64,000 nt of DNA, taken from NCBI RefSeq assembly GCF_001514535.1, contig NZ_BCNO01000001.1, positions 124,001 through 188,000 on the forward strand, in the 5' to 3' direction. Below are positions 14,426-55,213 of the stretch, one piece after another. The position numbers and the translations under genes are program-made. The stretch comes from Thermodesulfovibrio aggregans (GTDB taxonomy: Bacteria; Nitrospirota; Thermodesulfovibrionia; Thermodesulfovibrionales; Thermodesulfovibrionaceae). Below the pieces are notes generated by a model. That model made no database searches and was not told the origin of the DNA. It worked only from the letters and a program-made list of their open reading frames with translations. How positions within the stretch are numbered: the stretch's first letter is position 1; each line of letters opens with the position of its first letter.

Positions 14426-15289
14426 TCAAATTTTTATCAAAACAGCCATTGCAGTAAACAAAAACACTGTTATGCTTATGTAACCGTTCATGTTAAAAAA
14501 TGCCACATTCAACTTTGAAAGATCATCGGGTTTTACAAGTCTGTGTTCATGAATAAATAAATAAGCAACCACTGCCATTCCAAACCAGTAAAATATATTT
14601 AGCTTGAAAACAAGACCTGTTAAAATAAGAAAGCTCCATGCAATAAAATGAAAGAGCCTTGCAAGATATATTGCCTTTTTAACTCCAAAGATTCTGGGGA
14701 TTGAGTATATCCCGTATTTTTTATCAAAATCCACATCCCAGAGTGCATAGAGTGTATCAAAGCCAGCAAGCCAGAAAATAACTGTCAAGACCATGGGAAT
14801 TATTTCCAGGTCAAAACTTCCTCTTACAGCAATCCATGCTCCAAGTGGTGCAAGGGCAAGAGCCAGTCCAAGCACAAAATGGCATGCCCATGTGAATCTT
14901 TTTGTGTAGGAATATATGAAAAGTATGAAAATAGCAACTGGAGAGAGTTTAAAACAAAGGGGATTGAGCATCCATGCTGAATAAACAAATATTATGAGAC
15001 AGAGCACAGTGAATAAAACTGCTTCCCATAGTTTGATTTTTCCTGCAGGAATCTCCCTCTGAGCAGTTCTGGGATTAAGAGCATCTATTTTCCTATCAAT
15101 TATCCTATTAAATCCAAATGCACTGGCTCTCGCAGTAACCATTGCAACAGTAATCCAGAGTATCTTTTCAACTTCAGGAATTCCTCCTGCAGCAAGCATT
15201 GCACCTGCAAAAGCAAAGGGAAGGGCAAAAACACTGTGTTCAATTTTGATCATTTTGAGATAAAGCACAGCTTTGTTCACTATGGACAT
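14426..15289 (-). CDS. UbiA-family polyprenyltransferase (MqnP / 4-hydroxybenzoate type)
   Basis: Integral-membrane aromatic prenyltransferase of quinone synthesis. The 287 residues show the first aspartate-rich motif N61-RIID65-RKID69 and a second at WDVDFDKKYGIYSIP (about residues 184-198). About eight to nine hydrophobic helices are visible. Length and motifs fit UbiA and the MqnP enzymes of the futalosine menaquinone route. A menaquinone-using anaerobe makes MqnP the more likely role, but sequence alone does not separate it from UbiA. ubiX lies at 55214. Confidence 0.88.
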   Translation of the reverse strand: MSIVNKAVLYLKMIKIEHSVFALPFAFAGAMLAAGGIPEVEKILWITVAMVTARASAFGFNRIIDRKIDALNPRTAQREIPAGKIKLWEAVLFTVLCLIIFVYSAWMLNPLCFKLSPVAIFILFIYSYTKRFTWACHFVLGLALALAPLGAWIAVRGSFDLEIIPMVLTVIFWLAGFDTLYALWDVDFDKKYGIYSIPRIFGVKKAIYLARLFHFIAWSFLILTGLVFKLNIFYWFGMAVVAYLFIHEHRLVKPDDLSKLNVAFFNMNGYISITVFLFTAMAVLIKI

Positions 15290-15336: not shown

Positions 15337-15429
15337 TGGAGAGGGATGGTGGGAATTGAACCCACTGGAGGACACTGTCCTCCATCACTGGTTTTGCAGA
15401 CCAGGAGAGACACCAGTCCCACATCCCTC
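15337..15429 (-). tRNA. tRNA-Cys (GCA) with tRNA-Sec-like architecture
   Basis: 93 nt on the minus strand. Folded by eye: an 8-bp acceptor stem (GAGGGATG with CATCCCTC), a D arm GGGAC-TGGT-GTCTC (5 bp with one G-U, 4-nt loop), an anticodon stem CTGGT/ACCAG with loop CTGCAAA (anticodon GCA, cysteine), a variable arm with 8 bp (TGGAGGAC / GTCCTCCA, 3-nt loop), and a T arm GTGGG-TTCAATT-CCCAC. The acceptor plus T stem is 8+5 bp, as in bacterial tRNA-Sec and unlike the 7+5 of ordinary tRNAs. The discriminator is U73 with G1-C72, the cysteine identity set. CCA is encoded (15339-15337), unlike the other four tRNAs here. It is not tRNA-Sec itself, since the anticodon would be UCA. A standard tRNA-Cys is expected elsewhere. 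Confidence 0.88.
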
Positions 15430-15480
15430 TGAATAAAATTTTAAATAAATATTTCCGAAAAGTAAAATAGATTTTTTCTA

Positions 15481-17613
15481 TTAAAGCCAGATTAATTTAT
15501 CAAAATCTGGTGGGGGAATATGGATTTTTATAAAACCAACGATTGGAGCTCGATCAATTAGGTAACTGTTTTTAAAAACTTCAATAAATAGGCAGATATT
15601 TTCTTCCTGTTTTATTTCTATGACATCAAAGGGCAGTTCTATTTCAAATATCTCGTCTAAAGCAACAGTTTCTATTTCGTCTTTTCTTATCCATGTTTCG
15701 TTTTCCTGGATAAAAACTTGAGCTAATCCTTTATCAAGGAGATCAAAAACTATTTTTACTTTTACTGGCTCAATGATTTGAATCTGTATTTTTAAATCTT
15801 TAAAATCTTTAATTGGAAATTTTGGATCTAGCCTGAGAAAGAGACTTTGTCTGTTAAATCCATAGTAAAGATAAGAAAAAAGGCTTTCTGTTTTATGCAT
15901 GCTTCCACCCATTCTTTGCAGATTAAATTTTCCTGCCTCAAGCCATTCAAAATATCCAGTTATTTTCCCTTCAATTTTAGGATATATAAAACCTTTTGGC
16001 TCAACTTCTGGTTTAATCTCTTTCATTTTTTTACTAATAGGTACATGAAGAAAGGAAGGAGGTTCCTTCCCAATATTTAAATACACACTCATTAAATGAT
16101 GCCGATATATTTCATCAAAAACATCCTTTGTTTCGGTATAATGCTCATCTCCGTACCACCAGTTCCAATCACTTCCTTCTGAAATATATAGTTCCTCCCA
16201 TGCCTGAGAGAGATCCTTGTGAGGATTTTCTTTTTGATGTGAAACAAGATCCTGTCTCACTTTATAAAGATAATCCCAGGAAAGATTATCTTCTTCGTGT
16301 CCGATCCAGATTGAAAAATTTGCACCAATCCATGAGCCTGGAAAAACTCTCTTTAAGGGATTTGAATAAGATTTTTCCTGGAGATACTCTGAAAAAGTCA
16401 CAGTTCTTATATCTTTACTTTTTTGCAAATTTGCATATAGTTTTTCAAGAAAATCTTTTCCGTCATTGTCATAATATTCCCATGCATTTTCTCCATCAAG
16501 AATTACAGAGACTATACCAGAAGTTGTTGAATCGCAAATCCTCTTTAAAAAATCTTCTACTGCTCTTTGTGGTTGCCAGTTTGAATAGACAAATCCTATC
16601 AAATCTGAAAGTATTCGGTCCCTGAAAAAAATTTTAACTCCTGCAAACTCATATGGCTGGTATAGAATTGAAGGATTGATTAATTTATCAGCACTTCTTA
16701 GATTTTCATTTATTGATTTACTTAAAATTTCCTCATCTGTTGCTATCCATTTGATTCCAGCATCTGCTATCAGTTTTATAACTTCTTCACTTACAGAACC
16801 TTCAGAGGGCCACATCCCTTGAGGCTTAAAACCAAATATTCCTTCAAAATAGGTAATGGCTTTTTTTATTTGAATTTCTGCATCTTCTGGTGCTTTAAAT
16901 TGATATTGTGGAAGTTTTGCCTCTGGCATACATTCTTTTGCTTTGTAGTTGTCATAAATAAGAGGAAGAATAGGATGGTAAAAAGGAGATACAGAGATTT
17001 CAATCTGACCTGAAAGAGCCATTTGTTTATAGGCAGGAATAATCTGCCTGACAATTTCAATATGTTTTTCAAGAAGCAGTCTTTTTTCCTCTTCTGTAAA
17101 ATTAGTTCCTTTTTTTTGTAATTCCCTCAGAAATGGATCAGCCTCTCTGTGAAGAGGATCCATCCAGACAAGATTAAAGAGAACCTGAAGGTCTCTTAAT
17201 TCCTGTGCAGTAAATTTTTTTGAGAGTTTAACTGGATCTCCATAAATTTTACCTCTTTTTTCAAGTAATTCTTTATACCTCGGAAATGGCTCTATCATTG
17301 TTTTCCAGTTAGCAAGAAAGAAGTTTTCAACTAAAAAAGCTCTTTGTTCTTCATTCAGCTCTTCTGCAGGAATAATTGAGTATTCAAAAAAAATATCAGT
17401 TGCACCATTTTCATATTCTTTGAGTTGTTTTAAAAGCGAAGGAACAATATTAAAATTTACTTTTACTTCTGGAAATTTTTTCAAAATAAGAACCATATCA
17501 AGATAGTCTTTTGTTGCATGAAGTCTAACCCATGGAAGCATGAATTTATTTTTTAGGGGATCATAGTAGTAAGGCTGATGCATATGCCAGAGAATTGCCA
17601 GACTAATGCTCAT
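15481..17613 (-). CDS. Glycoside hydrolase family 57 protein
   Basis: Retaining alpha-glucan-active enzyme, probably an amylase or 4-alpha-glucanotransferase-type protein. It has 710 residues and no signal peptide, so it is cytosolic and likely acts on glycogen-like storage polymer. GH57 regions visible: region 1 WHMHQPYY (9-16), WPSEGS with E271 (268-273) in the nucleophile region, IATDEE near 290-295, and LDGENAWE at 372-379. About 200 C-terminal residues beyond the barrel form a beta-rich domain. It overlaps the ftsB-like gene by 4 nt at its start, so it belongs to the eno-ftsB transcript. Substrate not assignable. Confidence 0.9.
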   Translation of the reverse strand: MSISLAILWHMHQPYYYDPLKNKFMLPWVRLHATKDYLDMVLILKKFPEVKVNFNIVPSLLKQLKEYENGATDIFFEYSIIPAEELNEEQRAFLVENFFLANWKTMIEPFPRYKELLEKRGKIYGDPVKLSKKFTAQELRDLQVLFNLVWMDPLHREADPFLRELQKKGTNFTEEEKRLLLEKHIEIVRQIIPAYKQMALSGQIEISVSPFYHPILPLIYDNYKAKECMPEAKLPQYQFKAPEDAEIQIKKAITYFEGIFGFKPQGMWPSEGSVSEEVIKLIADAGIKWIATDEEILSKSINENLRSADKLINPSILYQPYEFAGVKIFFRDRILSDLIGFVYSNWQPQRAVEDFLKRICDSTTSGIVSVILDGENAWEYYDNDGKDFLEKLYANLQKSKDIRTVTFSEYLQEKSYSNPLKRVFPGSWIGANFSIWIGHEEDNLSWDYLYKVRQDLVSHQKENPHKDLSQAWEELYISEGSDWNWWYGDEHYTETKDVFDEIYRHHLMSVYLNIGKEPPSFLHVPISKKMKEIKPEVEPKGFIYPKIEGKITGYFEWLEAGKFNLQRMGGSMHKTESLFSYLYYGFNRQSLFLRLDPKFPIKDFKDLKIQIQIIEPVKVKIVFDLLDKGLAQVFIQENETWIRKDEIETVALDEIFEIELPFDVIEIKQEENICLFIEVFKNSYLIDRAPIVGFIKIHIPPPDFDKLIWL

Positions 17614-54559: not shown

Positions 54560-55144
54560 TCAACCAATCCATACAGTTTTATTAAAATCAAACATTCCCT
54601 CGACAAAATGATTTGTGGTGCCTCTGAATCCAACTTTGAGTCTATCTTCAAGGTTATAATACTTAAGGCATGTTCCGCATGTAAATATCTCTGTTCCCAT
54701 TTCTTCAATCTTTTTTAGAAGCTGAATAAACTCTTCATCTACAGTAGAAAGCTTAACAGCTGTATTCATTAAAAAAATCATCTGGGGAAGTTGCTTTGTT
54801 GCTATCATTGTTTCAAAGTAGGCTTTCATAAGAATTCTACCAAGTTTCTCATCTTTACCAATTACATCTGATGTAATGATAACAAGTAAATCTTTTTTAG
54901 CAGGTTTTTCTTTATGCGAAGTAATCTGACATGTATACCCTTTAACTATTTTAACTTTCCAGTAATCTTCCTCTTTTTCAACTTCATAATAATAACCAAA
55001 TCGAGTAGCATATTTCTTTAAATTTTCCATAGAACCTTCATTATCAACAACTATTGTTACCACTCCCTCTTGCATTTTTGATAATGCCTCTTCCGCAAGG
55101 ATAATTGGCTTAGGACATGCTAATCCTCTCGCATCTATCTCCAT
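54560..55144 (-). CDS. yedF: YedF-type selenium/sulfur-transfer protein
   Basis: Two-domain protein, 194 residues from the ATG at 55144 (GGAGGG upstream; a longer frame to 55177 has no such site). An N-terminal TusA-like domain has the CPxP motif C10-P-K-P (ARGLACPKP), which carries persulfide or perselenide. A C-terminal DsrE-like domain includes FTCGTCLKYY. This fusion corresponds to the selenium-metabolism YedF group (TIGR03527), usually found in genomes that use selenium. selD, selA and selB are not in the window. Confidence 0.88.
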   Translation of the reverse strand: MEIDARGLACPKPIILAEEALSKMQEGVVTIVVDNEGSMENLKKYATRFGYYYEVEKEEDYWKVKIVKGYTCQITSHKEKPAKKDLLVIITSDVIGKDEKLGRILMKAYFETMIATKQLPQMIFLMNTAVKLSTVDEEFIQLLKKIEEMGTEIFTCGTCLKYYNLEDRLKVGFRGTTNHFVEGMFDFNKTVWIG

Positions 55145-55213
55145 AACTCCCTCCGATTTTTTATTTATTTTACTCAATTTTATGGGAAGTTATAAATATG
55201 TTAGGATAAAATA

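Follow-up and report, generated by a model that had tools for sequence, protein, structure and literature searches.

A cysteine tRNA with a selenocysteine-tRNA body in Thermodesulfovibrio aggregans and its probable role at recoded UGA codons

What use could a bacterium have for a third tRNA, combining the identity of one with the body of the other, when it already possesses an ordinary cysteine tRNA and a canonical selenocysteine tRNA? The question is raised by a 93-nt tRNA gene with an encoded CCA on the minus strand at 15337..15429 of the window, by which is meant the whole 64,000-nucleotide stretch of the Thermodesulfovibrio aggregans genome that was analysed. ARAGORN reads this gene (15337-15429, minus strand) as tRNA-Cys(gca), and Rfam cmscan reads the same interval as tRNA-Sec (RF01852, E 9.5e-11, full model covered). 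A preliminary description had already seen both characters in this one molecule, and the covariance model accepts the fold drawn there, scoring 59.9 bits where its cut-off is 47 bits. Below, the tRNA is called tRNA-ReC (a selC*-type tRNA-Cys), the name applied to the tRNA of Desulfotomaculum nigrificans and others like it.

All parts of the tRNA lie on the minus strand. The acceptor stem has 8 bp, formed by the 5' strand GAGGGAUG (15422..15429) and its partner at 15341-15348, and together with the unbulged 5-bp stem of the T arm (GUGGG-UUCAAUU-CCCAC, 15349..15365) it makes a 13-bp branch. The D arm (15407..15420) consists of a 5-bp stem, GGGAC/GUCUC, and a 4-nt loop, UGGU; the anticodon arm (15388..15404) reads CUGGU-CUGCAAA-ACCAG; and the long variable arm (15366..15384) has 8 bp and a 3-nt loop. 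The anticodon GCA (15395..15397, also called by ARAGORN), the pair G1-C72 and the discriminator U73 with the encoded CCA (15337..15340) are read directly from the sequence. The fold had originally been drawn by hand, and unconstrained RNA folding returns exactly this cloverleaf, with an energy of -46.3 kcal/mol compared with -31.6 +/- 3.6 for shuffles (z -4.1; 0 of 200 shuffles as good). The coordinates given for the tRNA were likewise exact, the cysteine set GCA, U73 and G1-C72 does stand on a tRNA-Sec-like body, and this is indeed the only one of the five tRNAs in the window that encodes CCA, which the other four (Phe, Lys, Glu and Arg) lack. A sub-threshold Rfam match to mir-3747 at 16214-16282, on the opposite strand within the coding region of the neighbouring glycoside hydrolase gene, was set aside as chance.

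How widespread is the type? In what follows, G000 is the genome containing the window, other G numbers are genomes of relatives, and L numbers are loci or contigs examined. A covariance model built from 12 orthologues and searched in 396 Nitrospirota genomes found 67 ReC-type tRNAs in 63 of them, all in the same class; its lower-scoring matches overlap in score with tRNA-Sec. The type had been called rare, which is an overstatement, since it occurs in this many of the sampled Nitrospirota genomes and in several other phyla, and was published in 2017-2018. U73-CCA, which lies inside the model, is present in 67 of 67 homologues, and in the 66 distinct ones 95.7% of the cells of the 31-pair structure pair (83.2% in shuffles) and 284 cells carry two-sided changes (80 in shuffles) in an alignment fitted to the structure; the way they were obtained thus raises both counts a little. 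A model-free alignment of 12 sequences gives the same covariation picture, and sliding the pairing partners along the alignment destroys the 31-pair structure. The anticodon GCA and the loop CUGCAAA, among the best-conserved parts, are found in 66 of the 67, as is G1-C72. The eighth acceptor pair covaries between A-U and G-C, the T stem has 5 bp and is unbulged in nearly all Nitrospirota homologues, and the variable arm, which is the fastest-evolving helix, shows compensatory changes at all 8 of its 8 pairs. The invariance of U73-CCA and near-invariance of GCA, together with the strong covariation of the helices, show that the gene is functional and under purifying selection.

Several variants turned up in the same search. 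Four genomes (G227, G307, G291 and G044) have two ReC-type tRNAs apiece, and very long variable arms bring the tRNAs of L307, L316, L317, L319, L320, L323 and L044 to 119-132 nt. At L325:192-287 (G367:C88) the fold and U73 are intact and the anticodon is GUA, for Tyr codons, so that ARAGORN calls a tRNA-Tyr; one base from GCA, this is either a MAG error or a real codon change. ReC-like tRNAs are also found on contigs (L181, L188, L114, L165 and L189) whose labels, as deposited, are Chloroflexota, Actinobacteria/Actinomycetes, the unclassified bacterium BMS3Abin01 and Planctomycetaceae; these labels go beyond the phyla named for selC* in PMC7609411.

Where did such a tRNA come from? Among those tRNAs of its own genome that were compared, the closest to the window tRNA is tRNA-Sec, with an alignment score of 97.5; the next scored 59.5 and tRNA-Cys 42.5. 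The T arms of the two are one base apart (GUGGGUUCAAUUCCCAC in the window tRNA and GUGGGUUCGAUUCCCAC in tRNA-Sec). The anticodon loop and the three stem pairs that close it, GGU-CUGCAAA-ACC, are identical to those of the ordinary tRNA-Cys of the same genome. The simplest reading of these sequences is a copy of tRNA-Sec that acquired cysteine identity.

The genome of 2.0 Mb, in three contigs and rated 100% complete, contains a full selenocysteine system with likely UGA targets. The preliminary description had allowed that this might be the sole tRNA-Cys of the genome, which it is not: a second, ordinary 7/5 tRNA-Cys(GCA), its CCA not encoded, lies at C1:1101394-1101466. The other genes named there, tRNA-Sec(UCA), selA, selB and selD, are each present. 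The canonical tRNA-Sec(UCA), ending in GCCA with the CCA encoded, is at C3:158590-158683, and the window tRNA is thus a third tRNA beside these two. There is one full-length selB (C2:90291-92129), a second match to the selB model being partial, weaker and apparently EF-Tu; one cysS (C2:46865-48313); and one selA. Neither selB nor cysS is linked to the window tRNA in this genome, both being on another contig, which counts against the explanation preferred below. A search through one selenoprotein family after another gave at least two genes with UGA: the single-copy selD, with an in-frame UGA, and fdhA, in which the in-frame UGA lies in the motif ARI-U-HSPTV and has a hairpin of -23.7 kcal/mol behind it. 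Of 140 genomes of the order Thermodesulfovibrionales, 23 encode a short paralogue of CysRS that lacks the C-terminal domain, measures about 410 aa and is about 32% identical to CysRS (e.g., L342:2362-3603); it is absent from G000. As a dedicated CysRS* partner it was rejected, since 11 of 22 comparable genomes have ReC and 11 do not, and the two are therefore unlinked.

The fold, the conservation, the gene context, the UGA genes and the Sec machinery are best explained by the following picture of how the tRNA would be charged, delivered and used. The tRNA probably derives from tRNA-Sec, is charged by CysRS, is delivered by SelB and inserts cysteine at UGA codons that bear a SECIS. CysRS would recognize GCA, U73 and G1-C72 and load cysteine. 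The 13-bp branch and 8-bp acceptor stem would keep the tRNA off EF-Tu and on SelB, which would bring Cys-tRNA-ReC to UGA codons with a SECIS hairpin, such as those of fdhA and selD. There, GCA would read UGA through a G34-A mispair; the need for this mispair makes the pairing non-canonical and is a point against UGA decoding. The same mRNAs would then yield a cysteine form of the protein in place of the selenocysteine form, for example under selenium shortage. One genome would thus have two tRNAs, one for selenocysteine and one for cysteine, competing for the same recoded UGA.

Could the gene simply supply a second cysteine tRNA for ordinary translation, charged with cysteine and delivered by EF-Tu to UGC and UGU? 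Although GCA and the cysteine identity set are what such a tRNA would carry, this is improbable, since the genome already has its complete 7/5 tRNA-Cys(GCA), the T arm resembles that of tRNA-Sec and not that of tRNA-Cys, and compensatory changes have kept the 13-bp branch. Moreover, an 8-bp acceptor stem is the main determinant for SelB and weakens EF-Tu binding (PMC7609411).

Is the gene needed by its hosts? Directly upstream of it is a promoter-like site, TTTACT-17-TAAAAT (15438..15466, minus strand), a consensus match only, most of which is preserved in three congeners (G010, G013 and G001). The gene sits between a UbiA-family prenyltransferase gene of the menaquinone type (14426..15289) and a glycoside hydrolase family 57 (GH57) gene (15481..17613), both on the minus strand and both mere context outside the system. 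This position between the UbiA and GH57 genes is shared by G000, G010 and G013, and adjacency to GH57 is also seen in G010, G013, G002 and G001; in G008 and G012 the gene is at other sites. A link to the selenium-metabolism gene yedF was rejected. The tRNA had been described as near yedF, which is misleading, as that gene (54560-55177, minus strand; TIGR03527, 214.9 bits) is about 39 kb away in the window and no neighbour; the distance of about 2.7 kb in G002 arose via rearrangement. Eleven near-complete genomes of the genus were compared. The gene is intact in six of them (G000, G002, G008, G010, G012 and G013) and was undetected in four, each at least 94% complete (G004, G005, G009 and G014). 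The copy in G001 (L331:2493-2589, G001:C12), beside GH57, is decayed, with an acceptor mismatch and a T loop shortened to 6 nt, and is unrecognised by ARAGORN. Because of these four genomes and the one decayed copy, the gene is probably dispensable, which also counts against the preferred explanation. Congeners in which it is absent or decayed keep the same UGA genes, fdhA and selD, and whether fdhA has a Sec or a Cys codon was not seen to vary with ReC: congeners with and without ReC both have a UGA fdhA and a UGA selD. G009, in which the covariance-model search found no ReC, has two fdhA paralogues (L333 and L334) that differ at this codon, which is UGA (Sec) in one and codes for Cys in the other.

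A different kind of linkage, which supports delivery by SelB, is seen in family f10 of the order, five genomes of which (G054, G198, G289, G291 twice and G361) together have six loci where a selB starts immediately behind ReC. These loci are L043, L312, L313, L318, L327 and L328; the open frame of the linked selB even extends towards the tRNA in G054 and G198. G054 holds an additional, unlinked SelB. The C-terminal region of SelB binds SECIS, and in the alignment this region is kept in the ReC-linked SelBs, except where the fetched stretch ends early (G291).

The abutment of ReC on selB in f10, the patchy distribution of the gene and the poor match of GCA to UGA would all suit a tRNA that is mainly regulatory, one that binds SelB or CysRS and either titrates SelB or senses the supply of cysteine and selenium, with little decoding. 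We regard such a role as quite improbable, for the loop CUGCAAA is kept in 66 of 67 homologues, as would be expected from charging by CysRS and decoding, and the homologue in D. nigrificans is reported to decode UGA (PMC11415595).

Which amino acid, then, does the tRNA carry? A tRNA-Sec isoacceptor would be charged with serine by SerRS, converted to Sec by SelA and used at UGC or UGU before a SECIS, as in Aeromonas salmonicida, from which a genuine tRNA-Sec(GCA) has been reported (PMC11415595). The tRNA-Sec fold, the compact D arm and the long variable arm are those of such a molecule. However, SerRS requires G73 on tRNA-Sec (PMC7609411), which is present in 30 of 30 tRNA-Sec(UCA) genes of the order, whereas ReC has U73 in 67 of 67; cysteine rather than serine is therefore to be expected on the strength of the discriminator, and a selenocysteine isoacceptor is very improbable. 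That the gene is a pseudogene or a chance fold can practically be dismissed, because, although a decayed copy is known from the genus (the T loop and acceptor stem in G001), every helix of the window copy pairs, with the z of the folding energy as given above, the homologues covary and the promoter-like site is kept in congeners.

The genus offers a natural experiment, in which ReC is intact, decayed or absent while the same UGA fdhA and selD are present throughout, and the value of the cysteine version becomes directly testable. A more far-reaching proposal, which we put forward only tentatively and consider rather unlikely, is that Nitrospirota ReC constitutes a distinct, unbulged 8/5 form with the T arm of tRNA-Sec that shares a single SelB with tRNA-Sec and, coming and going among closely related species, serves as a facultative switch from Sec to Cys at shared UGA genes, with a dedicated selB behind it in one family and an anticodon that has drifted to new codons in a few genomes (GUA in G367). 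If this were true, such anticodon drift could open other codons to SECIS-dependent recoding. For mapping what SelB and CysRS recognise, natural variants are available in the unbulged 8/5 form and in the selB-linked family.

How does the window tRNA compare with known systems? With canonical tRNA-Sec it shares the 8/5 branch, the compact D arm, the long variable arm and a nearly identical T arm, but it has GCA instead of UCA, U73 instead of G73 and, as in tRNA-Cys, a U31-A39 pair closing the anticodon stem. An ordinary tRNA-Cys, with its 7/5 branch and short variable loop, it is not. Allo-tRNAs (8/4 and 9/3) resemble it in their tRNA-Sec-like outline and sense anticodon, but their branch is 12 bp long and their identity is that of serine (PMC7609411), compared with 13 bp and U73 here, which places the window tRNA outside that group.

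Among the closest known systems are the selC* tRNA-Cys species (Mukai et al. 2017, NAR 45:2776), whose hosts, according to the review PMC7609411, are Firmicutes, Thermodesulfobacteria, Nitrospirae and Proteobacteria. The 8-bp acceptor, long variable arm, U73 and GCA are shared with these, and the original suggestion of a selC*-type, tRNA-Sec-like tRNA-Cys is borne out by the fold, the identity set and this comparison with the published type. The same review gives the selC* tRNA-Cys an 8/4 branch with a 4-bp T stem and a bulged A51a, the bulge being dispensable for charging, and the window tRNA, with its unbulged 8/5 branch, falls outside this subtype. The bulged 8/4 form is seen in the Desulfacinum copies L119 and L126 (GGAGG/CCCC). 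The review also describes a delta-proteobacterial operon form, with selB* downstream and, in Desulfobacterales, cysS*; G000 has no linked selB* or cysS* and differs in this respect. The selB behind ReC in f10 is of this kind, and in the review such a selB* is named for delta-proteobacteria only.

According to PMC11415595, the D. nigrificans tRNA (Vargas-Rodriguez et al. 2018, RNA Biol 15:471) is charged with Cys by CysRS and inserts it at Sec UGA codons, with SelB rather than EF-Tu as its carrier. The window tRNA resembles it in the tRNA-Sec-like fold, GCA with U73 and thus cysteine identity, coexistence with a canonical tRNA-Sec and SelB, and having no need of a dedicated CysRS. It differs in the T stem, which is fully paired over 5 bp, whereas in Desulforamulus aquiferis (L163), which is related to D. 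nigrificans, a single C of the stem is left unpaired (GUC-C-GG/CC-GAC); this unpaired C in a 5-bp T stem is common to the Desulforamulus and Peptococcaceae copies, while those of Nitrospirota have a plain 5 bp. Judged by its sequence, the window tRNA is a tRNA-ReC and not of the bulged 8/4 subtype. It is a new Nitrospirota example of a published type, and its fully paired T stem sets it apart from the 8/4 form of the review's description.
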